In this document: positions 1-43,438 of the stretch, piece by piece
Layout: every line of letters starts with the position of its first letter
Numbering within the stretch: position 1 is the stretch's first letter
IMG/VR virus record: IMGVR_UViG_3300048582_000018
Span: 1 to 43,452 of that record
DNA: 43,452 bases
Source of the DNA: a virus
Direction: 5' to 3' (one strand)
Notes under the pieces: model-generated
Database searches by the model: none
What the model was told of the DNA's origin: nothing
What the model saw: the letters and a program-made list of their open reading frames with translations, nothing else
Translations under genes and position numbers: made by a program

Positions 1-1338
1 CTCGTCGATAGTGCCCTGCGCCACGAGGTTGTGGACGAACGTCGGCCGGTTCATGCCGGCTTGGTATTGCCGGGTGGGGCCGATGCGTTCGATGATCTGT
101 TCACGTTCCTCCAGGTTGTAGTCGAGCCCGAAGAACACAATGATGTTGCACACAAGCTGTAGGCCGTCGATACCGTGGCCGATGCTCGCCGGGTGGCCGA
201 TACCGACAGCCGCCTTGCCCGCTTTGAACTGAGCCAGTCCGGCAGTAGTGGCCAGGTCGACCGAGCCCTTGAAGTGTTTGAGCAAGCGCTCGCGGTCAGC
301 GACGAACTTGTACGCCACCATCACCGGAGCACCCATCGCCTCCTCGACAATGGACTCCAGCGCTTCGATCTTGGCGTCGTGCACGTTTGCCCATGTGCCT
401 TTATCGTCGAGCAGTAACGTACCGGAGGCGAGCTGCAGACACTTGATCGTGCGACTGGCCGCGTTGAACGCCTCGACACCGACGCGCTGAATCTCCAGAA
501 ACATCTCGCGCTCCATCTCCTTGTACTGGCGCATGGCTTTCTCCGGCAGCTTGACCGGCACGTTATTGACCACGCACTCGCTCAGGTCGAAGTAGTCCTT
601 GGCCTGGATGCTCAGGCACACGTCGCTGATCAGCCCGGTGATCTCGTCGAAGGCGTGCGGCAGCGGCTCGATGCTGAACCCGTCGTAACCCTTGCGGAAC
701 CACCGCTGCTCGAATGCGGAATGAATGCGCCCGAGGCGCTTGCCGGCGTCTATGAAAAATAGCTGGCCCCAAATATCACGGACGCCGTTCGGTGCCGGGG
801 TGCCGGTCAGCTCGATAAACCTGCGCACATGCTTGTGCGACACCTTGGCCAGTGCGCTGGTGCGCGATCCGCCACCCTTGCGGATGAACTCGACGCCTGT
901 CTTGCTGACCTGCTGGCTACCTCTGAACCCTTTGAGCTTGGTCGCCTCGTCCGCGATCACAGTGTCGAACGGCCAGTCGTCGCCGTACTGCTCAACCAAC
1001 CACGGCAGATTTTCGTAGTTGGTGACGGTGATAGGCGCACGCTCGCGCAGGGCAGCACGACGCTGCTCCGGTGTGCCAATAGCGCGGGCGATGCGCAGGT
1101 GCTGGGTGTGCTCCCACTTGACCGCCTCGTCGGTCCACACATCGCGCGCCACCCGCAGCGGGCCGAGGCACAGGATGCGCTTGGACTCACCGGCGAGCAT
1201 CAGGATGTCGGAGGCGGTCAACGCTACCGAGGTCTTGCCGGTGCCGGTGCCGGCGTGCAGTGCGCAGCGCGGTGTGTCGAGCACGAAGTCGATGGCCGGC
1301 TGTTGGTACGCGCGGGGGGTGAAGGGTTTAGGGCTCAA
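1..1338 (-). CDS. SNF2/DEAD-box helicase, N-terminal 446 codons (continues across the junction)
   Basis: Superfamily 2 ATP-dependent DNA helicase or translocase of the phage SNF2 type, probably acting in replication or recombination. The minus-strand frame is open from 1338 to base 1 and continues at 43438-43367, giving 469 residues. Visible motifs are Walker A AGTGTGKT (about residue 30), DEAT (VIADEATKLKGF, about 127), ELTGTPAPN (motif III), GHPASIGHGIDGLQ (motif V) and EREQIIERIGPTRQ (motif VI). I chose TTG at 1338: an in-frame TGA lies two codons upstream, GAGG sits 9 bases before it, and the conserved PFTPRAYQQ begins at once. The next in-frame ATG comes after Walker A. It follows the 55-aa zinc-ribbon gene by 11 bases. 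Family assignment is firm; the exact start is inferred. Confidence 0.93.
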   Translation of the reverse strand, partial: MSPKPFTPRAYQQPAIDFVLDTPRCALHAGTGTGKTSVALTASDILMLAGESKRILCLGPLRVARDVWTDEAVKWEHTQHLRIARAIGTPEQRRAALRERAPITVTNYENLPWLVEQYGDDWPFDTVIADEATKLKGFRGSQQVSKTGVEFIRKGGGSRTSALAKVSHKHVRRFIELTGTPAPNGVRDIWGQLFFIDAGKRLGRIHSAFEQRWFRKGYDGFSIEPLPHAFDEITGLISDVCLSIQAKDYFDLSECVVNNVPVKLPEKAMRQYKEMEREMFLEIQRVGVEAFNAASRTIKCLQLASGTLLLDDKGTWANVHDAKIEALESIVEEAMGAPVMVAYKFVADRERLLKHFKGSVDLATTAGLAQFKAGKAAVGIGHPASIGHGIDGLQLVCNIIVFFGLDYNLEEREQIIERIGPTRQYQAGMNRPTFVHNLVAQGTIDE

Positions 1339-1349
1339 ACGTCAACACC

Positions 1350-1517
1350 TCACCGGCAATGTGTGCAGATGTACGGGCACGCAGCGGACGGCTTGTTGCC
1401 GTAACCCGCTCGCCAGAACTCTGACAATTCGCGCGTGACGTGGCAGCGCTCGCACTTGCACACAGGGATGTGCCCAACAACGAACGGCACACCGGCCGGC
1501 AGTATTTGATAACTCAC
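1350..1517 (-). CDS. 55-aa zinc-ribbon-like small protein
   Basis: Small protein with a GTG start, preceded by AAGGTGA. It carries two cysteine pairs, CKCERC near residue 20 and CPYICTHC at the C-terminus, the pattern of a small zinc ribbon. No enzyme motif is visible. The GTG overlaps the TGA of the upstream 57-aa gene by GTGA, and the SNF2 helicase start follows 11 bases after the stop, so it belongs to the replication operon. The zinc-binding pattern and its place beside nucleases and a helicase suggest nucleic-acid or protein contacts, but that is inference. Confidence 0.72.
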   Translation of the reverse strand: MSYQILPAGVPFVVGHIPVCKCERCHVTRELSEFWRAGYGNKPSAACPYICTHCR

Positions 1518-1687
1518 TTGATCACCTTACGGATGTGTTGCCAGCCACGGCAGCGCGAGCACTGCAGCAGGCCGAACGATTGGTAGAACAGCGCGCCGGT
1601 GCCCTGGAGCTTGTGCTTGTGCCGGCACGCCTTGGGGTTTTTCTCACCGCTGAACACGGCGATGCGCTCGCGGGTTTGCTTATTCAT
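1514..1687 (-). CDS. 57-aa basic small protein with a CxxC pair
   Basis: Basic 57-residue protein (starts MNKQTRERIAVF). It has CRHKHK near residue 21 and LQCSRCRGW near residue 41, so a Cys/His set C-x-H-x-H ... C-x-x-C could bind one zinc ion. It overlaps the upstream 36-aa membrane peptide by 8 bases and the downstream zinc-ribbon gene by GTGA. I do not recognise the family. The regular frame, coupling and second zinc-like motif in a row support a real gene. Confidence 0.7.
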   Translation of the reverse strand: MNKQTRERIAVFSGEKNPKACRHKHKLQGTGALFYQSFGLLQCSRCRGWQHIRKVIK

Positions 1688-1790
1688 CGCCGCGCGCCAT
1701 GCACATCAGCGCGCTGATGAGGATGCCGGCGCTGCTGCCGATGGCTAGACCCAACGCGAGGCCGGTGCCGAACACAAGCCAGTCGCTCAT
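1680..1790 (-). CDS. 36-aa single-pass membrane peptide
   Basis: Short peptide (MSDWLVFGTGLALGL...) with one hydrophobic, glycine-rich span over residues 4-30 and a polar tail ARGDE, compatible with a single transmembrane helix. Its ATG overlaps the stop of the VRR-NUC gene by ATGA, and its end overlaps the next gene, so it sits tightly inside the operon. No function can be assigned. Similar tiny membrane proteins often occur in early phage operons. Confidence 0.6.
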   Translation of the reverse strand: MSDWLVFGTGLALGLAIGSSAGILISALMCMARGDE

Positions 1791-2062
1791 TGGGGCATCT
1801 CCGCGATAACGTCAACGGCGAAGCCAAGCTCGCGCAGGCGGGTGTGCTCGCGCTCCTGCGCCTTGGTCGGCTTCTGACCCGGCGCCTTGAACTCGGCAAA
1901 GCGGATGTATTTGGCGACGATCTCGCGGTGCTCATCCGCCACCGGGAACAGGCGCAACCGGTCGGGGACGCTGCGCCGGGCTGGGCTGGTGAACTTGTAC
2001 GGGATGCCGCCGGCAGCCTTATCGCGGGCGCAGTGGGCTGCTTCAATTACCGATTCGCGCAT
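1787..2062 (-). CDS. VRR-NUC domain endonuclease
   Basis: A 91-residue single-domain VRR-NUC protein of the PD-(D/E)XK superfamily, as in many phage replication modules, where it is thought to act on branched DNA. The family signature PYKFTSPARRSVPDRLRLFPV gives the substrate loop and catalytic Asp (about residue 34). FAEFKAPGQKPTKAQEREHTRLRELGFAV gives the E-x-K pair (about 57-59) and the terminal helix. The length matches the family. A strong AAGGAGG lies 7 bases before the ATG, and the palindromic operator at 2094-2109 lies just upstream, so this gene may open its own transcription unit. Confidence 0.93.
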   Translation of the reverse strand: MRESVIEAAHCARDKAAGGIPYKFTSPARRSVPDRLRLFPVADEHREIVAKYIRFAEFKAPGQKPTKAQEREHTRLRELGFAVDVIAEMPQ

Positions 2063-2093
2063 TGCTCAACCTCCTTGCTCAATATCGAATGAC

Positions 2094-2109
2094 TTTAGCA
2101 TGTGCTTAA
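2094..2109. promoter_or_regulatory. Repressor operator copy (palindrome)
   Basis: TTTAGCATGTGCTTAA, a near-perfect inverted repeat of 7+7 bases around a 2-base centre. It matches the elements at 5947, 8785 and 9437. It lies between the polymerase stop and the VRR-NUC start, about 32 bases upstream of the ATG on the minus strand, where it could overlap a leftward promoter. Binding by the CI-like protein is inferred from the copy beside that gene. Confidence 0.72.
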
Positions 2110-2111
2110 CC

Positions 2112-3881
2112 TTACGCGCAAGCGCCGATATCCCGCAGGATCGCGTTGGTCTCCGCGATGTACCAATCGAGGTCGACATCGTCGGGGAACTGCTCGGGCA
2201 GTTGCATCAGCGGCTTGGCACCCTCGCTGCGCGCAACGGTGTAGCCGTTGATCTTGTAATTGATCGCACCCTCGACACCGGTGGCGTAGTACCAGCGCAC
2301 CGCCTTACCCAGGTACTCGTCGCCCTTGACCGCGCCACCCTTGACGGTGCGGATGGTGACGAAGCGGCGAACGTCCTGGCACTGGCGAATGTAGTCCTCT
2401 ACCGGGGTGCCCGCTTTGAGGTACGCGACGACCGCCTCACTGACGACCTCGCAAGTCGGGTTCTTCTGCAACCCGGCCGGTGCATACACGCCTTTGAGCT
2501 TGTAGCCGTTGGACTTGATGGCGACGTAGTTGTTGACATCGCGGGAGTACAGCGCCTTGTAGTGGGTGTCCTCAGTCTCAAACCCGGTGAGCTGCTCCCA
2601 CTCCCACACGACCTGCTCCATCACCGGCGCCAGTGGGCGCGGGCACTTGATCACGATGCCGTCAGTGTTGGCCGATACGACCGCGATACCCTCATCCTCC
2701 AACATCTCGATCAGCATCAGCAGCGAGAGCTGGCCGGTGACCGTGGTCTGGATCAGCAGGGTCGGCGAGTACAGAATCGAGTAGGGGCTGCCAAACTTAC
2801 CAAACGAGCCGTTGATCGTGAGCTTTTTTGAGTCGGCCTCAACCTTGTTACCGGACCGCTTGGCTGCTAGACGTTCCTGAACAATCCTCCGATACACCTT
2901 GGTGAAGTGGTCGCCCATGTGCGCAGGCCGCAGGCCGCAGTTGAGGATGATCGCCGGGTAGTAGCTGGCCACGTCGCGGTCAATCAGCAGCGTGTGCTCA
3001 TCAGCAAAGTGCGCGACTGACTTCTCGGTCGAGTGCAGGCCGCCGATGCCCATCTTGTAAACCGATCCGCCGATAGCGATCTTCAGCTCGGCGATCTCCT
3101 TGGGCATCTTGACGGTGCCGTTCGTGGCAACGAGGAAGTCGGCCGAGCGCACCACGTCGAGCATGTCGCGCAGCACATCGCGCCGGTACTCGATGAACGC
3201 AGGCGGGCGATAGTTGAAGGTCTCACCGGCCAGTCGAAAGGGGTCTTGCTTGGGCAGGCGCTGGCCGCGCAGACGCTCGACCTCGTGACGGATGACCGCC
3301 TCGGCGATCTGTGCGTCGGACTTGCTACGCAGGTCGATACCGTACTGCGCGCCCATCTGCTCACGCAGCTCGATCTGCGGTGTCAGCTTGCGGAACAGGG
3401 CGAGCGTGGTCTCCAGGTCGTTGACGCAGTACCGGCGCAGGTCGTCACGTTGCTCCGGTGCGATCATCGCGTCCGGCTCAATCGGTAGGTCTTGCATTTT
3501 CGGGCAGTGCAGCCGGCCGCCGTAAATCTTGAGGCTGGCGATACCGGGCGCGACCTCGATCAGGTCGATGTGATCGCACTCCACCGGCTCGATGTTGAGC
3601 TGCCAGGCCTTTGCATTGTTGAGGATGATCTTGTCGGCGATGCGCTTGATCCCGACGGTGCCGACACCCTGCAGCGCCAAGCTGATCAGCGGCAGGTCGA
3701 AGTTGATACCGTTGAAACTGACCACCCGGTAGGTGGCCAGTATCTTGCGCACGGTTGCGATGTCGAACGCATGGCCCTCGAACATCTCGAAGTGCCGCAC
3801 GTTACCGGTGTCGGCGTTCAGAAAGGACAGCAGGAAGTAGTTGCCGTAAACTTCACAATCGAAGATCAATGTACCTTTCAC
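2112..3881 (-). CDS. Family B DNA polymerase with 3'-5' exonuclease domain
   Basis: Replicative DNA polymerase, 589 residues. The exonuclease domain shows FDCEVYG (Exo I, about residue 8), FNGINFDLPLI (Exo II, about 55) and YCVNDLETT (Exo III, about 152). The polymerase domain shows motif A RDVASYYPAIIL (about 301), motif B KLTINGSFGKFGS (about 352) and motif C SANTDGIVI (about 405). In motif C the first Asp of the usual DTD is Asn, while the second, metal-binding Asp remains. At 589 residues it is compact for family B, and I see no protein-priming insertions with certainty. The start is GTG, overlapping the upstream gene by GTGA. The surrounding nuclease, helicase and DUF2815 genes fit a replisome role. 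Confidence 0.93.
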   Translation of the reverse strand: MKGTLIFDCEVYGNYFLLSFLNADTGNVRHFEMFEGHAFDIATVRKILATYRVVSFNGINFDLPLISLALQGVGTVGIKRIADKIILNNAKAWQLNIEPVECDHIDLIEVAPGIASLKIYGGRLHCPKMQDLPIEPDAMIAPEQRDDLRRYCVNDLETTLALFRKLTPQIELREQMGAQYGIDLRSKSDAQIAEAVIRHEVERLRGQRLPKQDPFRLAGETFNYRPPAFIEYRRDVLRDMLDVVRSADFLVATNGTVKMPKEIAELKIAIGGSVYKMGIGGLHSTEKSVAHFADEHTLLIDRDVASYYPAIILNCGLRPAHMGDHFTKVYRRIVQERLAAKRSGNKVEADSKKLTINGSFGKFGSPYSILYSPTLLIQTTVTGQLSLLMLIEMLEDEGIAVVSANTDGIVIKCPRPLAPVMEQVVWEWEQLTGFETEDTHYKALYSRDVNNYVAIKSNGYKLKGVYAPAGLQKNPTCEVVSEAVVAYLKAGTPVEDYIRQCQDVRRFVTIRTVKGGAVKGDEYLGKAVRWYYATGVEGAINYKINGYTVARSEGAKPLMQLPEQFPDDVDLDWYIAETNAILRDIGACA

Positions 3882-4357
3882 TTAGTCATGCCCCACTTTG
3901 CAGCGGCTAGGGCTGCTCTTGCTTTATCAGTTGCATCACCTAGCACGCGCTTTGCCACCGCCTTTAGTTTTGCCTCCTGACTAATGACTGAGCGCATTGC
4001 AATAATGGATTCCTCCAGCGCCTCAACCAGCCTCGCGTCTGCTGGGGCTGGGTGTGAGTCAACATACTCATAGTCAAATGCTTCCCACGGCTCAACGAGA
4101 TCATAAAGCCTGTCTAGATACCCCTTATTAGATGCTCGATCTAGGTAATAGGTAAGGTCAGAGAAAGCCGCATTCACCGCTACCAGTCGATACCCTTCCT
4201 TTAGCGGCTCCTGCTGCTGGGCTGGCTGGGCGAGCAGTTCTGGAAAGTGCGAGCCAATACACTCTGCTTCCTCACTCAGTCGCCCCTTTTCGTGCGCTAG
4301 TTGATAGAGCAAGTCCCGTATTTGTTCGAGAAACTCACTATCCACAAGTATCTTCAT
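3878..4357 (-). CDS. Uncharacterised 159-aa protein, accessory block
   Basis: I do not recognise this protein. Starting at the ATG at 4357 (GGGAGC upstream) it is MKILVDSEFLEQIRDLL..., acidic in the first two thirds and helical and lysine/alanine-rich at the end. There are no transmembrane segments and no clear motif. It overlaps the next gene (the polymerase GTG) by 4 bases and the upstream 69-aa gene by 4 bases. The DNA here is visibly AT-richer than the polymerase gene, as in the next two genes upstream, suggesting later acquisition of the block. Confidence 0.78.
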   Translation of the reverse strand: MKILVDSEFLEQIRDLLYQLAHEKGRLSEEAECIGSHFPELLAQPAQQQEPLKEGYRLVAVNAAFSDLTYYLDRASNKGYLDRLYDLVEPWEAFDYEYVDSHPAPADARLVEALEESIIAMRSVISQEAKLKAVAKRVLGDATDKARAALAAAKWGMTK

Positions 4358-4563
4358 GGCTTTGCTCCCTTTTCCAAATAGTGCAACTCCCAAGTCGGGT
4401 GAAACTTGCTCGGCTTTGTTTCGCCATCCAGCAGGATCATTAGATGCGCTCCTTTTGCGCCTGTAATAGTTCCTCGCTGAGTAAGCCTACTGCCTGTGTA
4501 AATGACTTCCCCACCGATCTTTGCAGGCACTTGGTATGCGTCGCGGATGTAGTCCATGCTCAT
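4354..4563 (-). CDS. Uncharacterised 69-aa protein
   Basis: Small protein (MSMDYIRDAYQVPAKIGGEV...) with a run of short beta-strand-like stretches (IGGEVIYTG, RGTITGAKG, LMILLDG) resembling a small beta-barrel, and then a phrase PTWELHYLEKG. Similar short proteins occur in phage accessory regions, but I cannot name a family. It overlaps both neighbours by ATGA and shares the AT-richer composition of the block. Confidence 0.72.
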   Translation of the reverse strand: MSMDYIRDAYQVPAKIGGEVIYTGSRLTQRGTITGAKGAHLMILLDGETKPSKFHPTWELHYLEKGAKP

Positions 4564-4940
4564 GGCTTTACTCCTTTGCTCCGGCAGTCAAGTTCGGCCA
4601 CTACTGCCTCATAAGCGATACGCATGTATGCGTCAGGGCAGGAAAAACGATCTAGTGCTGCACGCACTTTGATTGCTATGTCGTGAGCATCCGGCACGAC
4701 CGTCTGTGCTGCGAGCTGGGCGCGGAGTGCTTCGTTGCAATCCCTGTAAATCTTATTGTCTGCCTTGAGCTGGTCGCGCTCTTGGATCACAAACCACAAC
4801 TCGCTGTGTTCTAAGTCGTACAGCTTCAGCTTCAGCCCCTCGACAATGCGCTGGTGCTGGTTGACTAGCATGTAGTCGCCGTCAGGGTAAGGCTGCAAAA
4901 AGCCCTCAACCAAGTCGTACCGCTCCACTTCCTCATTCAT
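4560..4940 (-). CDS. Uncharacterised 126-aa coiled-coil protein
   Basis: A 126-residue protein with a predicted helical or coiled-coil centre (residues 38-78: VIQERDQLKADNKIYRDC...) and a polar N-terminus. No catalytic motif is visible. It overlaps the downstream 69-aa gene and the upstream membrane-protein gene by ATGA each. The central ERDQLKADN-type segment is typical of many small phage early proteins and gives no function by itself. Confidence 0.75.
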   Translation of the reverse strand: MNEEVERYDLVEGFLQPYPDGDYMLVNQHQRIVEGLKLKLYDLEHSELWFVIQERDQLKADNKIYRDCNEALRAQLAAQTVVPDAHDIAIKVRAALDRFSCPDAYMRIAYEAVVAELDCRSKGVKP

Positions 4941-5281
4941 AGCTCAACCCTCCCGGCAGCCAACCCATCACGCAACCCGACGATGTAACCGTCTGTCTCG
5001 CCCGCCTTTGGATAGGGGCACATCACCGGCGCGAGCGCGTCCAGGTCGCACTGGTCGACACCCCAACACACGCCGACCACATAACCATCGACAAAGTCGG
5101 CGCACCAGTTGCGACCCTCGGCGGCCTGTACCGGCTGGCTGGCCAATAACGTCGCAATGACCCATGCGACGAGCGCAATCGCCGACATAGCGATGGCGCG
5201 GTTGTTGGCTGACTTGACCTCACGACGCAGTTGCCGGTTGTCTTGCTGCAGTCCACGGACCGTTTCTTCTAAGTAATTCAT
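4937..5281 (-). CDS. 114-aa membrane-anchored or exported protein
   Basis: MNYLEETVRGLQQDNRQLRREVKSANN forms a short coiled coil. A hydrophobic segment over about residues 30-50 (AIAMSAIALVAWVIATLLA) follows, ending SQPVQA/AEG, which resembles a signal-peptidase site. The rest carries three Cys (CADF, CWGV, CDLD) plus CPYP and GYxVG repeats (DGYVVGVCWG, DGYIVGLRDG). The ATG at 5281 was chosen because the longer frame runs back through a terminator into DUF2815. A periplasmic or membrane-anchored role is likely (superinfection exclusion or an i-spanin-like role are possibilities), but function is unknown. Confidence 0.72.
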   Translation of the reverse strand: MNYLEETVRGLQQDNRQLRREVKSANNRAIAMSAIALVAWVIATLLASQPVQAAEGRNWCADFVDGYVVGVCWGVDQCDLDALAPVMCPYPKAGETDGYIVGLRDGLAAGRVEL

Positions 5282-5293
5282 CGCGCAACCCTC

Positions 5294-5319
5294 AAAAAAA
5301 TGCCCCCATCGCTGGGGGC
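5294..5319 (-). terminator. Rho-independent terminator behind DUF2815
   Basis: Read on the minus strand, GCCCCC-AGCGAT-GGGGGC is followed by A and seven T. It lies 17 bases after the DUF2815 stop and before the 114-aa gene, so it should end or attenuate the transcript started near the operator at 5947. The genes at 5281-2112 would then depend on read-through or antitermination. Confidence 0.82.
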
Positions 5320-5336
5320 TAAGATCATCCGACCGG

Positions 5337-5888
5337 TTAGACCAGGTCGTCAGCTTCTTCAACAACATCGAAGTCGTCAGCGCTGGCTGGGGAGCCGCCG
5401 CTGAACGCTTCGCCATGCTTGACGAACTGAACGCCCTTGAGGCTGGCGTTGATACGCTTGCCATATTGATTTTCCTGGGCCCAGACATCGAGGATCGCGT
5501 TGACGAAGCAGCCGCCATACGGACGACCATCGGCCGAGGTGAGTGGAGTCTTGTCGCGGTCGATCACAGTGGGGCGAGTCTTGTCGTTGGACGTGACGTA
5601 GTGCATACCCTCGAAGCCGGCGTAGACATCACCGGACTGGTTGCACTTTTCTTCCTCGCGGTAGCAGACCTTGTCAGCCTTGCGCAGTTGCGCCAGGACA
5701 CCGGGCGCCTTGTCAGCCCACTTATCTTTAGCCACTTGCTCAATGGCTGCAGCGAGTGCCTTGGCGCCAGCACTGCCGGGCTCGAGGATGAACGTGGCGG
5801 AATACTTTGGCTCGCCGCCGTCAGTACCGGCTTGAGGGGTGAACAGGTGGGGGAACGACAGACGGGCATTGCTCAGAGATACTTTCAT
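5337..5888 (-). CDS. DUF2815 family single-strand DNA-binding-like protein
   Basis: A 183-residue DUF2815 protein. The family accompanies DUF2800 nucleases in phage replication modules and is regarded as an ssDNA-binding or annealing protein. Diagnostic stretches are ARLSFPHLFTPQAG at the N-terminus, YSATFILEPG, GYAGFEG-like VYAGFEGMHYVTS, and GCFVNAILDVWAQENQYGKRINASLKGVQF, then an acidic C-terminal tail (DDFDVVEEADDLV) typical of SSBs. It is preceded by an operator (5947) and followed by a terminator (5294), so it can be expressed alone at high level. The start ATG has AGGA upstream. Confidence 0.9.
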   Translation of the reverse strand: MKVSLSNARLSFPHLFTPQAGTDGGEPKYSATFILEPGSAGAKALAAAIEQVAKDKWADKAPGVLAQLRKADKVCYREEEKCNQSGDVYAGFEGMHYVTSNDKTRPTVIDRDKTPLTSADGRPYGGCFVNAILDVWAQENQYGKRINASLKGVQFVKHGEAFSGGSPASADDFDVVEEADDLV

Positions 5889-5946
5889 TTTCAGCTTCCT
5901 ATTTCCAGATTGGGGTTCTGCAGGTTCATCGACCTACGGGTGTGAC

Positions 5947-5962
5947 TTTAGCAAGTGCTAAA
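5947..5962. promoter_or_regulatory. Repressor operator copy (perfect palindrome)
   Basis: TTTAGCAAGTGCTAAA is a perfect 7+7 inverted repeat around a 2-base centre and the best copy of the element. It lies 59 bases upstream of the DUF2815 start on the minus strand, between it and the PAPS-reductase-like gene. The bases after it (GCTAAAGTCA on the minus strand) are the same at the 2094 copy, suggesting a conserved promoter-operator arrangement. Confidence 0.78.
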
Positions 5963-5982
5963 TGCTTGTGCAACTACTTTAT

Positions 5983-6687
5983 TCAAAGACTACAAACCCG
6001 GCAGGTGGTCGCTCGTTTGTATTCGCGCAGCTTCCGACCGGAGTCGAACTCCTGCGCCAGTGAGCGGAGGTCCGCCGGCCATGTATCGCGCCCAGGGCTG
6101 CGGAAGGTGGCGCCGAGTTCATCCTCCATCTGGACGGCCTCGATGTACTTCTCGCGGTTGTTCTGCCACAAGTCGCGCCACTCGCCGAGGCGCTGATAAG
6201 GACACTTGGCGCAATCGGTGCGCTGCGGTATGCAGACGCCACGGTCGTCGAGCGCCTTCCACACCGCCGCCTCGTCCATACCCCACTCGCGCAGCGGGAA
6301 ACGGATAAGCATGTCCTCCCCGTAAATTCCGCGTCGTATCTCCTCGTCGGCACGAAGACCGACGTACAGCGTTGAGCCGTCCGGCAAGCTGTCCATGTAG
6401 CGGATGGTCGGCTCGATCTTGAGGATGCGAGTACACCAACGGGCGAACACGCTGGGTAGCATGTTTTGCTTGCGGATTTCCTCGTCCAGGTTGCGCTCGT
6501 GGCGCACCCGGATGATCTCGGTCTTGAGCAAATCCTCCAGGCGCTTCCAATGGTCGACCATCTCCGGCAGCTCGTCGCCGGTCTCGTTACAGATGAACTC
6601 GTACTGGCGCGGCTCACGTTCAACCAGCAGCAAGGCGAGCGCCGTCGAGTCCTTGCCACCACTGAGACCAACGACATGCCTACTCAC
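5983..6687 (-). CDS. Phosphoadenosine phosphosulfate (PAPS) reductase family protein
   Basis: N-type ATP pyrophosphatase fold enzyme, 234 residues. The PP-loop GLSGGKDSTALALLL lies at residues 8-22, NETGDELPE follows at about 36, WCTRILK at about 84, and a Cys set TDCAKCPYQR occurs at about 160, ending in CRVC. The family covers sulfate assimilation, tRNA and nucleobase thiolation and DndC-type DNA phosphorothioation. A phage copy among replication genes is more easily read as DNA or nucleotide modification than sulfur assimilation, but that is inference. The GTG start overlaps the DUF2800 stop by GTGA. No DndD/E-like partner is present in the genome. Confidence 0.88.
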   Translation of the reverse strand: MSRHVVGLSGGKDSTALALLLVEREPRQYEFICNETGDELPEMVDHWKRLEDLLKTEIIRVRHERNLDEEIRKQNMLPSVFARWCTRILKIEPTIRYMDSLPDGSTLYVGLRADEEIRRGIYGEDMLIRFPLREWGMDEAAVWKALDDRGVCIPQRTDCAKCPYQRLGEWRDLWQNNREKYIEAVQMEDELGATFRSPGRDTWPADLRSLAQEFDSGRKLREYKRATTCRVCSL

Positions 6688-7919
6688 GCCAAATCCTCCG
6701 AGCCCAACGCCTCGAATCCATCAGCCACTGGCGCCATCTCCAGCGCCGGGCGCTTATCCGTTACCGGTGCGAGCACTGGCTTACCTTCGGACTGACCGAT
6801 CAGCGACTCGACCTTCGACCACCGGCGAGGGCTGTCTTTGAGCAGCTTCTCGGCTTGCGTCGGGCTGATCAGTTTGAAGCTGTACATCTCGTCGACCTTG
6901 AGGCGCATAGCCTTGAGCGTAGCCTCGACCTCGGACTCGTCGGTCCATGCGCGAGAGCCACGACGACCGGCGACGACCTTGAAGCCGACCAGGTTCTCGC
7001 CAGCCATTGCGCGGCGGTAAGACTCCTCGCGCACCGCCTTACACCAGTCCTCGATAAGGTCGACTTTGCGCAGACTCGCTGCCAGCCAATCCAGATCGAC
7101 GCCGGCGGTTGGCTCACAGGCCGGTGCGTCCAGGTTTGCGAAGTCGTCGGCTGACGCAGGCGGGGAGTCGAACACCACGGTCGCCACGTCGTTTCGCAGC
7201 TTTGGGCAGGTCGCCCTCGCCTTACAGTAGTACTTGCTGCAGTGCTCGCCCGGGGTGAGATGCGGCTCGATCTCGCTGTACTCCTTACCGATCAGCTCGA
7301 CAGCGGTCTGGCCACGGCGGCCGGCGTACCGGGCGAACTCCATCAGATGGTCAACCTCGACCTCGTGGATGTCCGGCTTGCTGGACTTGGGCGGCTGCAC
7401 GATGACGCAATGCACGCGGGTGAAGTCCTGCACGATGCTGAACTCGTCCAGCGCGCCGAGCGCGTAGAACTTGAGCTGTGGCGTCTTGGCTGAGACTTCG
7501 TTCTGCCCGGTCTTAAGGTCCACGATCCACATCTCGCCGTCAGGCGTGACGATGATGGCGTCGGCAGTGCCGAAGCTATCCGGCACACCGATGACATTGG
7601 AGTAGTCAACCCGGTGCTCGACGAACAACTGACCGTCGGTATTGGCGACGATCTCGCGGATGATGCCGACGTAGGTCTGCACCATCTCAGTCATCTTGTC
7701 GTCCACCTCGTACTTGTAACCCTCGACCTCGATCAGACGACCGCGATAGGCCTCGGCGTCTTTGTCGTCGGTCAGGCACCACGATGCCAGTTCATGCGCG
7801 GCAGTGCCCCAGCGTGCTGACTCTCCAGCGCTGTCGGGTAGGCCGTCGCACATGGCGAGGGTGCCGGGGCACGCCAGCCACCGGGCTGACGCGCTGGCGC
7901 TTAATAGTGCATGTGCCAT
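6684..7919 (-). CDS. DUF2800 RecB-like PD-(D/E)XK nuclease
   Basis: A 411-residue DUF2800 protein, a Cas4/RecB-like exonuclease of phage replication and recombination modules. The N-terminus LSASASARWLACPGT and RWGTAAHELASWCL are family hallmarks. The nuclease core is SFGTADAIIVT...MWIVDLKTG (catalytic D and D-x-K, about residues 118-138) followed by QLKFYALGAL. A cysteine cluster HCSKYYCKARATCPKLR (about 225-241) suggests an iron-sulfur cluster as in AddB/Cas4. It begins with TAATG against the preceding 55-aa gene and pairs functionally with DUF2815. Confidence 0.92.
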   Translation of the reverse strand: MAHALLSASASARWLACPGTLAMCDGLPDSAGESARWGTAAHELASWCLTDDKDAEAYRGRLIEVEGYKYEVDDKMTEMVQTYVGIIREIVANTDGQLFVEHRVDYSNVIGVPDSFGTADAIIVTPDGEMWIVDLKTGQNEVSAKTPQLKFYALGALDEFSIVQDFTRVHCVIVQPPKSSKPDIHEVEVDHLMEFARYAGRRGQTAVELIGKEYSEIEPHLTPGEHCSKYYCKARATCPKLRNDVATVVFDSPPASADDFANLDAPACEPTAGVDLDWLAASLRKVDLIEDWCKAVREESYRRAMAGENLVGFKVVAGRRGSRAWTDESEVEATLKAMRLKVDEMYSFKLISPTQAEKLLKDSPRRWSKVESLIGQSEGKPVLAPVTDKRPALEMAPVADGFEALGSEDLA

Positions 7920-8086
7920 TAGTGAGACTCCTCTGGCTCAACTTCCTGCCCACCCAGGGTCTGCAGGAAGTTGGCGGCGTAGATGTGGGCGAGGCTTTTC
8001 TCATCGAAGCCCTCGCCGTCGAAGTCGACCCGCACATCGGCAGAGCCGTCGACGGTGTCGGTGAACGTGATGGTCGCGGTAGCCAT
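7919..8086 (-). CDS. 55-aa acidic small protein
   Basis: MATATITFTDTVDGSADVRVDFDGEGFDEKSLAH... is an acidic peptide with two beta-strand-like stretches, then a helix (SLAHIYAANFLQTLGG) and an acidic tail. A strong GGAGG lies 8 bases upstream of the ATG, and the stop shares one base with the DUF2800 start (TAATG). Short proteins of this layout (strand-strand-helix, with FDxxxxDxxSxAH) are common in phage early operons. I give no function. Confidence 0.78.
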   Translation of the reverse strand: MATATITFTDTVDGSADVRVDFDGEGFDEKSLAHIYAANFLQTLGGQEVEPEESH

Positions 8087-8088
8087 GG

Positions 8089-8478
8089 TTACACCTCCAA
8101 CAATGCAGTGGCTGCCGCGTGGTACTCGGCGAACTTCTCCGGTGCCAGCTCGCTCGCCTTCGGTGCGCCGAACTTGCCCAGCAGCTCGATCAGTTGCGCG
8201 CGCTTGCCCGCCTTGCCGAGTGCCAGGGTGATGTCGATCACGTCCTGCTTGCTGATGTCAGCGACCGGATCAGCGGCTGCAGGTGCAGGCTCGTCCTTTG
8301 GCTCGGGCGTAGCAACAGGGGCCACTTCGGCCACCGGCTCGGGCTTGGGGTCAGCTTTGACCTTCTCGACCTTGGCCGGCTTGGACTCTTTGACCGGCAC
8401 GCTGGCGCCAGTGCTCAGTGCGGCGATCAGGTCGCGGATGTTGGTGTTCAGTTCGGCGATTGCGATTTCAAGACTCAT
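8089..8478 (-). CDS. 129-aa protein with Ala/Pro/Glu/Lys-rich linker
   Basis: Three parts are visible: an N-terminal helix (MSLEIAIAELNTNIRDLIAAL, residues 1-21), a long low-complexity linker of A, P, E, K and V (about 25-72), and a C-terminal helical domain with DVIDITLALGKAGKRAQLIELLGKFGAPKASEL (about 79-111). The C-terminal part resembles domains seen in phage early proteins next to DUF2800/DUF2815, perhaps a protein-protein adaptor. I cannot name the family. GGAG stands before the ATG. Confidence 0.78.
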   Translation of the reverse strand: MSLEIAIAELNTNIRDLIAALSTGASVPVKESKPAKVEKVKADPKPEPVAEVAPVATPEPKDEPAPAAADPVADISKQDVIDITLALGKAGKRAQLIELLGKFGAPKASELAPEKFAEYHAAATALLEV

Positions 8479-8484
8479 GGGGTG

Positions 8485-8742
8485 TTACTCCGGTTGGGTG
8501 GTTGTGTATGCGTAAGCAGCGTCGAGGCGCTGCCGGTCCCGCAGGGTTTGCTCGTTGTAGTCAACGAGATTGGTGACAGACTCGACGATCTCGGCGCCGC
8601 GTTCCCACTCAGCAGTCACCTCAGTGCCAATGCACTGCAGTGCCGCCAAGGCGAGCAGGTTGCCGGTGTCGATAGCTCTGTTCTCGATCTCGCGGCGAGT
8701 GAGGTGTGATTCGACGGTTCCAAGCAGTTGGTGGTAGTGCAT
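8485..8742 (-). CDS. 85-aa uncharacterised first gene of the leftward early operon
   Basis: Mostly helical 85-residue protein (MHYHQLLGTVESHLTRREIENRAIDTGNLLALAALQC...), with no recognised domain. It is the first leftward gene after the immunity operon's terminator and has an operator copy 43 bases upstream and GAGGA before the ATG, so it is probably among the first genes relieved when the repressor is lost. The next gene begins 6 bases after its stop. Confidence 0.75.
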   Translation of the reverse strand: MHYHQLLGTVESHLTRREIENRAIDTGNLLALAALQCIGTEVTAEWERGAEIVESVTNLVDYNEQTLRDRQRLDAAYAYTTTQPE

Positions 8743-8784
8743 TGCTTAATCCTCGTTGCTGGTATTGGTGCCACGGGTACAAGT

Positions 8785-8800
8785 TTAAGCAGATGCTAAA
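8785..8800. promoter_or_regulatory. Repressor operator copy
   Basis: TTAAGCAGATGCTAAA matches the genome's operator consensus TTTAGCAnnTGCTAAA with one substitution. It lies in front of the 85-aa gene, just after the terminator of the repressor operon. It is the most likely control site of the main leftward early promoter (PL analogue). Confidence 0.74.
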
Positions 8801-8812
8801 CGCACTGTCAAC

Positions 8813-8835
8813 AAAAAAGCCCGCGCTCGGCGGGC
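8813..8835 (-). terminator. Rho-independent terminator of the repressor operon
   Basis: On the minus strand GCCCGC-CGAGC-GCGGGC is followed by six T and G. It begins 17 bases after the stop of the 54-aa gene and closes the two-gene repressor transcript before the next operator. Confidence 0.84.
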
Positions 8836-8851
8836 CGGGTGACTGAGTGGG

Positions 8852-9016
8852 TTAGTACAGCCAAACCGCACCGGCTGACCCGATGACAATGAGCACGAGC
8901 AGCACCCGGTGTACGAGCAGCCGCTTGCGCGTGCTGATGGAGCAGAGCGATTGCACTTCGGGCGGTGCTTTTTGTTGTGCCAGGTACATCACGCGCTGCC
9001 GGTCTAGTTCGTTCAT
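8852..9016 (-). CDS. 54-aa membrane peptide coupled to the repressor
   Basis: MNELDRQRVMYLAQQKAPPE... has a basic region (STRKRLLVHR, about 28-37) followed by one hydrophobic segment (VLLVLIVIGSAGAVWLY, 38-54) reaching the C-terminus, so it looks like a tail-anchored inner-membrane protein. Its ATG overlaps the repressor stop by ATGA and a terminator follows, so it should be made in lysogens together with the repressor. That context fits an exclusion or host-interaction role; function is not shown by sequence. Confidence 0.74.
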   Translation of the reverse strand: MNELDRQRVMYLAQQKAPPEVQSLCSISTRKRLLVHRVLLVLIVIGSAGAVWLY

Positions 9017-9426
9017 TTATCACCCAACAAGGAAAGCAATCGGCGAATGTAGGTCTCGTCCAGGGCGCCGCGTTCCTGTGCGAGAGCGACCAGTTCAGCG
9101 AATTGCCGAGGTGTGGCCTTGGTTCCGGTATCACTGAGCATCTGCCCGACGAGCACGATGGTGTCGCTCACACTACCCTCGTCGATCCGGCTCACATAAC
9201 TGTCGTGCTTCTTGTCCAACCATCCGTTCGGCATGCGCAGGCGCTGCTCGATTCCACGCGCCACCTTCTCGGTCACCTGGCGCACCGGGCGGGGGCCGAC
9301 CATCTGACTCAGGTACGACGGCGAGCTGTAGCCGAGCATCTTGGCCAGACTGGTGGCACCCTCGTGTTGCCGGATCAGGGCGCGCAGGTTCTCCCGTCGC
9401 AGCTTGAACACTTCGTCCGTTGGCAT
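9013..9426 (-). CDS. CI-like repressor (HTH, no peptidase domain)
   Basis: A 137-residue transcription regulator. An N-terminal HTH (RRENLRALIRQHEGATSLAKMLGYSSPSYLSQMVG, about 10-44) is followed by VARGIEQRLRMPNGWLD (about 55-71), typical of phage CI/Cro-type regulators, then a helical C-terminus. There is no S24/LexA-like self-cleavage domain with its Ser-Lys pair, so induction must work differently from lambda CI. It is divergent from the Cro-like gene at 9486, with operators in the gap. AAAGGA precedes the ATG. Confidence 0.86.
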   Translation of the reverse strand: MPTDEVFKLRRENLRALIRQHEGATSLAKMLGYSSPSYLSQMVGPRPVRQVTEKVARGIEQRLRMPNGWLDKKHDSYVSRIDEGSVSDTIVLVGQMLSDTGTKATPRQFAELVALAQERGALDETYIRRLLSLLGDK

Positions 9427-9436
9427 GACTCAATCC

Positions 9437-9461
9437 TTTAGCGTATGCTGCACATGCTAAA
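9437..9461. promoter_or_regulatory. Immunity-region operators, two overlapping copies
   Basis: The 25 bases run TTTAGC...GCTAAA and are palindromic as a whole. They can be read as two 16-bp sites offset by nine bases: 9437-9452 (TTTAGCGTATGCTGCA) and 9446-9461 (TGCTGCACATGCTAAA), each with one strong half. They lie in the 59-base gap between the divergent repressor and Cro-like genes, the place expected for the lysis-lysogeny operators. Confidence 0.82.
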
Positions 9462-9485
9462 TCCATTTCAGCAGGATCATAACAC

Positions 9486-9806
9486 ATGAGCGACATGTCC
9501 CAGTTCAAAGCGTGGATGCGGATCGCCACCCCGGAGGAGCAGCGCACGCTCGCCGAGGCGGCCGGTACATCGCGCCACTATCTATACCACTTAGCGAATG
9601 ACCGGTCGCGCTATGGCCGCAGCGCCAGCGCAGACTTGGCCGGTCGTATCGAGGCGGCTTCGCGCGTCCTGTGCGCCAGCAATCCCAAGCTGCCGATCAT
9701 CAGGCGCACCGACCTGTGCGAGGCGTGCCGGAGCTGTGAGTTCGCACGCAAGTGCCTGGGCGATCAGCTCATCACCGAGAGCGAGTTTCGCGTCATTAGT
9801 GATTAA
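9486..9806 (+). CDS. Cro-like HTH regulator with Cys-rich tail
   Basis: A 106-residue protein. The HTH-like region is TPEEQRTLAEAAGTSRHYLYHLANDRSRYGRSASADLAGRIEAAS (about 15-60). The C-terminus contains DLCEACRSCEFARKCLG (Cys at about 76, 79, 82 and 88), a possible zinc-binding knuckle. Its place opposite the CI-like gene and at the head of the rightward early genes supports a Cro role. AGGA lies 10 bases upstream of the ATG. Cysteine clusters are unusual in Cro proteins, but similar LCEACxxC tails occur in some phage regulators. Confidence 0.8.
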   Translation: MSDMSQFKAWMRIATPEEQRTLAEAAGTSRHYLYHLANDRSRYGRSASADLAGRIEAASRVLCASNPKLPIIRRTDLCEACRSCEFARKCLGDQLITESEFRVISD

Positions 9807-16932: not shown

Positions 16933-17423
16933 TGAGCCAGATCAACACCCGCGAAGCGGCTGAAAGTGCCAAGAACTTAGCGCGCCTTTTCAAGGGCGTG
17001 CTGCAGGTGGGCGAACTGCTCGACAACGTCGCCAACATCGAGCAGTTGGCGAGCGAGGCTAAGGTCGCAGCCGATGCGGCTGTGGACGAGCGCGCCAAGG
17101 CAATCGCTGCGGCGGACGACGCCAAGGGCGAACTGGCTAAGGTCAAGTCCAAGGTCAAGGCTGCTGAGGATAAGGCTGCCGAGGTTGTTGGTGATGCCAT
17201 TGCGCAGGCGAACAAGATCGTCGGCGATGCCAAGAGTGAGGCTGACGCGCTGATGGCCAACGCGCAGGACAAGTGCCTCGCTGCCAACGCTACGTTGGGC
17301 GAGATTCATGCCGCTGTCGTCGAGGCCCAGGCCAAGCGTGACGCGGTCGAGGCTGAGTGTGCTGCTGTCGAGGCCAAGTTGGCCAAGATCAAGGCGCAGG
17401 TTGCTAAGGTTCTGGAGGCTTAA
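16932..17423 (+). CDS. 163-aa coiled-coil protein
   Basis: Almost entirely helical and rich in Ala, Glu, Lys and Asp with heptad spacing over residues about 20-163 (e.g. NIEQLASEAKVAADAAVDERAKAIAAADDAKGEL). It starts by sharing a base with the stop of the decoration-like gene. Such proteins occur in the head modules of BPP-1-like phages, with unknown assembly roles. It could be mistaken for a scaffold, but the gene at 19589 is the better scaffold candidate. Confidence 0.78.
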   Translation: MSQINTREAAESAKNLARLFKGVLQVGELLDNVANIEQLASEAKVAADAAVDERAKAIAAADDAKGELAKVKSKVKAAEDKAAEVVGDAIAQANKIVGDAKSEADALMANAQDKCLAANATLGEIHAAVVEAQAKRDAVEAECAAVEAKLAKIKAQVAKVLEA

Positions 17424-43366: not shown

Positions 43367-43438
43367 TTATTTCCCCTTGAGTCTTTCCAGTAGCAACTGC
43401 TGCAGGCTGGCTTTTGTTTCCACGCGGGTGAGCACAGT
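43367..43438 (-). CDS. SNF2 helicase, C-terminal 23 codons and stop
   Basis: Reads TVLTRVETKASLQQLLLERLKGK and TAA. Joined after VAQGTIDE at base 1 it forms the characteristic SNF2 end VAQGTIDETVLTRVETK. The reading frame is kept exactly when the 14-base overlap is collapsed, so this is the same gene as 1-1338. The DUF3310 gene begins 2 bases later. Confidence 0.93.
   Translation of the reverse strand, partial: TVLTRVETKASLQQLLLERLKGK

Follow-up and report, generated by a model that had tools for sequence, protein, structure and literature searches.

This article concerns a 16-bp palindrome, a putative operator, that recurs along the early genes of IMG/VR virus record IMGVR_UViG_3300048582_000018, one whole virus record of 43,452 nucleotides, which was analysed at full length and is called the window below. 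Two divergent regulator genes mark the locus: that of a CI-type repressor of 137 amino acids (9013..9426, minus strand), with a helix-turn-helix (HTH) and a helical C-terminal part, and that of a Cro-like protein of 106 amino acids (9486..9806, plus strand), which belongs to a YdaS-like family and carries a C-terminal Cys motif. Beyond the repressor gene, three gene blocks are read leftward on the minus strand. The first (5983..8742) comprises open reading frames (ORFs) of 85, 129 and 55 amino acids, a DUF2800 exonuclease and a PAPS reductase-like gene; the second (2112..5888) a single-stranded DNA-binding protein (SSB), small ORFs and a DNA polymerase; and the third opens with an endonuclease-like gene (phrog_93; 1787..2062), with a helicase-like ORF (1338-1) next in line. 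A copy of the palindrome stands in front of each block, and a composite form lies in the gap between CI and Cro.

Putative operator sites in the window

The half-site is TTTAGCA and the operator a 16-bp dyad with a 2-bp centre. An earlier note on this DNA had called for a motif scan of the whole genome, and when both the 43,452-base record and 100 shuffles of it were scanned with TTTAGCANNTGCTAAA at up to 3 mismatches, the record gave five matches, a number reached by none of the shuffles (mean 0.49, largest 3). Three of the five are distal to the CI/Cro gap and lie on the minus strand: one at PL with 1 mismatch (8785..8800), ahead of the first block; an exact one (5947..5962), ahead of the SSB gene and hence of the second; and one with 1 mismatch (2094..2109), between the DNA polymerase and endonuclease-like genes, ahead of the third. 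The other two overlap in the CI/Cro gap (9437-9452 and 9446-9461) and together make up the composite TTTAGCG-TA-TGCTGCA-CA-TGCTAAA (9437..9461, no strand assigned). The palindrome that the note had described as repeated is thus found more often than in any shuffle, but it is not repeated letter for letter, as only the copy at 5947 is exact and those in the CI/Cro gap each have 3 mismatches over the 14 consensus positions. The gap element is better described as a pair of good outer half-sites with a weak one between them that both use, and sites based on TTTAGCA occupy the equivalent gap in relatives.

By the ORF list every site is intergenic, as the note had maintained, falling in the gaps 2063-2111, 5889-5982, 8743-8851 and 9427-9485, which by hand count make up about 5% of window positions 1-9486, and within the window's long coding runs the same scan finds no match. 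The note had also held that the bases following the 5947 and 2094 copies are common to both on the minus strand, and indeed GCTAAAGTCA is exact on that strand at 5952-5943 and 2099-2090 only, with two more 1-mismatch matches elsewhere, although matches to this decamer at up to 1 mismatch are not unusual on their own, four being reached in 5 of 100 shuffles. Since the distal operators overlap the -10 (TAAAGT at 5947 and 2094), GCTAAAGTCA combines the right half of the operator with the -10 box.

Putative operators in related phages

Relatives were gathered in two ways, by a scan for the DUF2800 exonuclease, which gave 56 loci, and by alignment of the Cro-like protein, which gave 93 relatives, of which 80 were kept, together with one contig of a Burkholderiales metagenome-assembled genome (MAG), the sole cellular match; about 29 of the 80 lie on contigs of the first set (names compared by eye), so that the two sets are not independent. 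A short-peptide search of viral contigs for close relatives of the 137-amino-acid CI returned none, and none of 50,697 phage records matched the Cro-like protein. Most DUF2800 loci hold TTTAGCANNTGCT[AC]A-like sites at the PL region, before the DUF2800 or SSB gene, and between the polymerase and endonuclease genes. Counted with the window's own motif at up to 2 mismatches in 65 Cro-anchored loci (16 redundant ones and the window itself being set aside), 128 sites fall in the early-left arm (428 kb) versus 4 in the other arm (441 kb), and four control patterns give 0 or 1 match per arm in the same loci. Over whole records, the motif at up to 1 mismatch occurs in 33 of 46 relatives and a reversed-pattern control in 1 of 46; at the same threshold, and with seven near-identical loci dropped, a site is present at the PL region in 28 of 31 loci and between SSB and endonuclease in 24 of 38.

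Searching the loci without the motif de novo for further repeated palindromes gave nothing convincing, and the search is uninformative because GC-rich palindromes swamped the results and the true motif was not ranked first even in the window. One such observation from a relative, L035, is a set of AT-rich palindromes in four copies.

Promoter context of the distal sites

Each of the three distal sites coincides with a minus-strand sigma70-like promoter whose spacer and -10 are overlain by the operator. The promoter at 8785 reads TTGACA-18-TAAACT (8811 to 8782), with a terminator-like hairpin (8818..8836, minus strand) directly upstream, the T run of which enters the -35; the promoter-like sequences at the other two sites are TTGCAC-17-TAAAGT (5973-5945) and TTGCGC-18-TAAAGT (2121-2092). 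Across the relatives, too, the right half of the operator runs on into the -10 (TACAAT/TAAAGT), and a TTGACA-like -35 (at least 4 of 6 bases, spacer 16-19) accompanies 33 of 92 sites from relatives and window versus 1-16 at eight shifted offsets, a count that T-rich terminators upstream of many PL sites may inflate.

With the right half overlapping the -10 and the sites spaced like promoters, one could suppose that nothing more than a promoter element is conserved here, an extended -10 with a conserved spacer and no regulator to read it. We find this highly improbable: the left half TTTAGCA, set about a fixed 2-bp centre in dyad symmetry with the right, is conserved to the same degree as the right half, which alone overlaps the -10 (91 sites at up to 1 mismatch, a filter that itself favours conservation), the other arm is nearly empty, with its 4 sites in 441 kb, and both half-sites changed together in the variant lineage L143 discussed below. 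It is also improbable, if slightly less so, that the distal sites are roadblocks to elongating polymerase in the manner of L5 stoperators and not promoter operators. They do lie within a long leftward transcription path, each after a gene end, yet a -10 overlaps every one of them in the window, -35-like boxes in relatives are over-represented at the proper spacing, and no sites were found in the window's long coding runs.

Candidate regulators

The association between sites and regulators was measured in 42 of the 55 DUF2800 loci, those with at least 3.5 kb upstream (L038 being without a DUF2800 ORF). The motif is present in 29 of 33 loci with a Cro-family gene versus 1 of 9 without one (Fisher 3e-5, odds ratio 58), and in 24 of 26 loci with CI versus 6 of 16 without (Fisher 2e-4, odds ratio 20). 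In the L142/L143 lineage, where the recognition helix of CI is a different one, the operators have changed to TTTAYCANNTGRTAAA, which at up to 1 mismatch occurs at seven sites in L143 (one of them in the other arm), four in L142 and one in L133, and in none of the other 79 of the 82 entries; set side by side, the operator forms are TTTATCANNTGGTAAA in L143 and TTTAGCANNTGCTAAA in the window, with both half-sites altered together. The CI recognition helix of L143 is altered far more than its Cro helix. Operators and regulators thus change together, and the change is not assigned to one reader because the Cro helix also differs in the variant lineage. An attempt to separate CI from Cro by covariation failed for want of variant lineages, L142 and L143 being near-identical and L133 a short contig, and a further scan with the CI of L143 reached only the L142/L143 contigs again.

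These data also bear on whether the sites might be read by a regulator of the host, such as a LexA- or MarR-like factor. The relatives seem to share environments and host range, and their only cellular match is the Burkholderiales MAG contig; however, among phages with the same replication module the motif follows the phage's Cro/CI family, and the operators changed in the lineage where the phage's own regulators changed, and we regard a host reader as a remote prospect.

A closer competitor for CI is the Cro-like protein. No full-length CI was found in 15 of 61 loci, with remnants or deletions visible in several. Among loci without a CI match whose left arm is at least 3 kb, all nine have at least one site and six have at least two, to be compared with 39 of 39 and 32 of 39 among loci with a CI match (the truncated-CI loci L097 and L098 counted as positive). 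Since several lineages without full-length CI keep Cro and the operators, the Cro-like protein probably reads the operators too, and for part of the role it appears at least as good a candidate as the 137-amino-acid CI, whose own binding is predicted from sequence. Carried further, the distal sites would be mainly Cro operators for early shut-off in lytic growth and CI would act chiefly at the CI/Cro gap and PL, a proposal favoured by the operators kept where CI is missing, by CI remnants or deletions beside intact PL sites, and by the motif tracking Cro more steeply than CI (odds ratios 58 and 20). It is nonetheless somewhat unlikely, given that both CP-933P proteins bind the same operators (PMC8630535), that the CI losses may be recent and have left too little time for sites to decay, and that in L143 it is the CI helix that changed most. 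The Cro tree needs 11 label changes, 5 of them forced by well-supported branches, in a tree of low resolution, with 30 of its 55 inner branches open. As a separate observation, CI is deleted, truncated or undetected in L092, L126, L096, L097/L098 and L102 while the adjoining Cro and operators are intact, which makes these loci candidate naturally virulent derivatives.

A proposed distributed switch

Taken together, we think it likely that the sites are distributed operators of the phage's own CI/Cro-type switch, placed over each early promoter and silencing the blocks separately. The same switch element stands before each early block and is kept in matching places by many related, mostly unstudied phages, which makes it probable that a single phage repressor silences several promoters and not just one. 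The predicted mechanism is as follows. An HTH dimer would occupy each 16-bp dyad, which covers the spacer and -10 of a sigma70 promoter. Each leftward block has one operator-promoter of this kind, at PL, before the SSB gene and after the DNA polymerase gene, and the CI/Cro gap has the composite. CI in a lysogen would sit on all operators and sterically block RNA polymerase at each promoter, whereby the replication and recombination blocks would be silenced separately; during lytic growth these operators would be bound by the Cro-like protein, which would turn the early promoters down. The multi-site arrangement at internal promoters that the note had put forward is strongly supported by conservation, by strand and promoter context and by the joint change in L143, whereas an immunity role and the 137-amino-acid CI as reader are predictions, the Cro-like protein being at least as good a candidate for part of the task.

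Several observations weigh against this distributed-operator interpretation. The copies in the CI/Cro gap are degenerate, and the promoter-like sequences at 5947 and 2094 have weak -35 boxes (TTGCAC and TTGCGC, 3 of 6 matches each). Not all sites occur in all relatives; before DUF2800 or SSB a site is present in 29 of 47 loci even at up to 2 mismatches, and six of the 42 DUF2800 loci (L023, L032, L036, L037, L047 and L059) have a Cro/CI gene and no site within 1 mismatch, although L023, L036 and L037 show weaker related sites by eye. Finally, CI and Cro are inseparable as readers, as the Cro helix differs too in L143 and L133.

A more tentative idea is that the operator network outlives lysogeny: CI may be lost repeatedly while the YdaS-like Cro and the operators are kept under selection, Cro running a many-promoter early shut-off in virulent descendants, with cassettes that carry their own operator-promoter at fixed spacing being recruited to the regulon. 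Lineages without CI offer a natural experiment on the fate of an operator network after repressor loss, and L143 offers one on how a repressor changes in step with its many dispersed operators. The analysis provides a defined, conserved operator set for a phage group of which hardly any member has been cultured, and with it immunity groups would become predictable from sequence.

Comparison with known systems

Distributed operators are themselves already known, since the phiC31 repressor has conserved inverted repeats at early promoters and the operators of P1 C1 are dispersed. Both repeat their sites at several promoters for one repressor, as is predicted for the window, and the site layout of the window would fit the phiC31 type; these are unrelated phage groups. 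In cluster A mycobacteriophages (L5/Bxb1) one repressor has many genome-wide sites with a consensus that varies with the repressor, escape from immunity mostly comes from mutations that inactivate the repressor and not the sites, and the sites, 20-30 per genome, are 13-14 bp without dyad symmetry, bound by a monomer and mostly off promoters, Rep being the only identified regulator (PMC6550527). One repressor with many sites is what we propose for the window too, but the window differs from the L5 stoperators in that its sites are dyads, with five matches only and promoter features at the three distal ones.

Closest in its proteins is CP-933P, a cryptic prophage of E. coli O157:H7, in which the DNase footprints of PaaR2 (CI-like) and YdaS (Cro-like) overlap at PR and PRM on operators whose half-site is GTTTAGTAA, and both proteins regulate PL (PMC8630535). 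The likeness lies in the divergent CI-like and YdaS-type regulators and in GTTTAGTAA being close to the TTTAGCA half-site, and the leaderless repressor mRNA described there is counted as a further one (PMC8630535). The differences are that CP-933P operators are grouped as OR1-3 and OL1-3 whereas the window has one at PL, single distal ones and a composite in the CI/Cro gap only, and that the CP-933P repressor operon carries a toxin-antitoxin pair whereas CI in the window is followed by a small hydrophobic ORF. Structure models agree with the pairing, as the top folds of the Cro model are the CP-933P YdaS entries 8co2 and 8c7k (probability 1.00, E only 0.04-0.06), and the divergent HTH repressor and YdaS-fold Cro by which a CP-933P-type switch is recognised are both present. 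The CI (P0001) matches two phage transcription-regulator families and nothing in Pfam at 0.01, and its model (mean predicted local distance difference test score 84) shows an HTH and three C-terminal helices, with no S24 C-terminal domain of lambda-like self-cleaving CI found by Pfam or in the model. Its top fold in the PDB is 5d50 (probability 1.00, E 0.014), the Rep repressor of a Salmonella temperate phage with the antirepressor Ant, from which it differs in sequence (17-21% identity) and in that no antirepressor gene was identified in the window; neither the CI nor the Cro fold match reaches E 0.001.

The Bordetella phage BPP-1 (NC_005357) has a like replication module and gene order, with DUF2800 (43% identical), SSB, DNA polymerase, endonuclease and helicase, but a UmuD-like CI and another palindrome, ATGCGYNNRCGCAT, whose intergenic copies lie only in the cro/cI gap (three) and the PL region (two), with scattered intragenic matches elsewhere; the window's motif is absent from BPP-1 within 2 mismatches. 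Because BPP-1 keeps its operators at the cro/cI gap and PL with the same kind of module, scattered operators are not simply a property of that module. A single dyad operator per promoter across a long early region fits none of the known systems compared, and the novelty lies in a CP-933P-like pair being combined with single dyad operators that are dispersed along the early region. In open-access searches for work on dispersed operators we met no description of this motif or phage family, and a text search of open-access literature with the half-site returned nothing relevant.

Other features of the locus and its relatives

An integrase-like ORF (42741-41746, named by eye) makes a temperate lifestyle likely, and the window looks circular because the helicase-like frame exits at the left end and seems, by eye, to resume at the right. 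A 12-bp core match at 43391 was discarded as falling, by eye, in the apparent 3' end of the helicase. The PAPS reductase-like gene (5983-6687, minus strand) sits in the early block, and among the DUF2800 loci a relative is present only in L051, in a different place.

A 54-amino-acid ORF with a hydrophobic tail (8852..9016, minus strand) overlaps the CI stop. In most CI-bearing loci an ORF of about 50-55 amino acids with a C-terminal hydrophobic stretch (in relatives ..EEIKQRIAYLVEHGG..DDP..) begins at or near that stop, in 43 of 46 loci by a script count that chose another frame for the window; the distance from CI stop to PL site is 207-254 in 41 of the 44 loci having a site. Our guess is that it encodes a CI-linked exclusion protein. 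The C-terminal C-x2-C-x5-C motif of the Cro-like proteins has three Cys invariant in 16 of 16, often with a fourth just before, and is a possible metal or Fe-S site.

Close to where the early arm ends, and next to small ORFs, a cassette with TATACATTATGCG recurs up to three times per locus, for example at 17207, 17845 and 18502 in L040, 19458 in L044 and 15342 in L008, among others. In 24 of 26 copies, counted without dereplication, an operator-like 16-mer (up to 2 mismatches) starts exactly 34 bases from the first base of TATACATTATGCG. The near-perfect palindrome TCTAGCACCTGCTAGA, which can be extended into a longer hairpin, is present at 19381-19396 in L044 and in similar places elsewhere, about 112 bases before the cassette operator in several loci, and may be a terminator or a high-symmetry operator.

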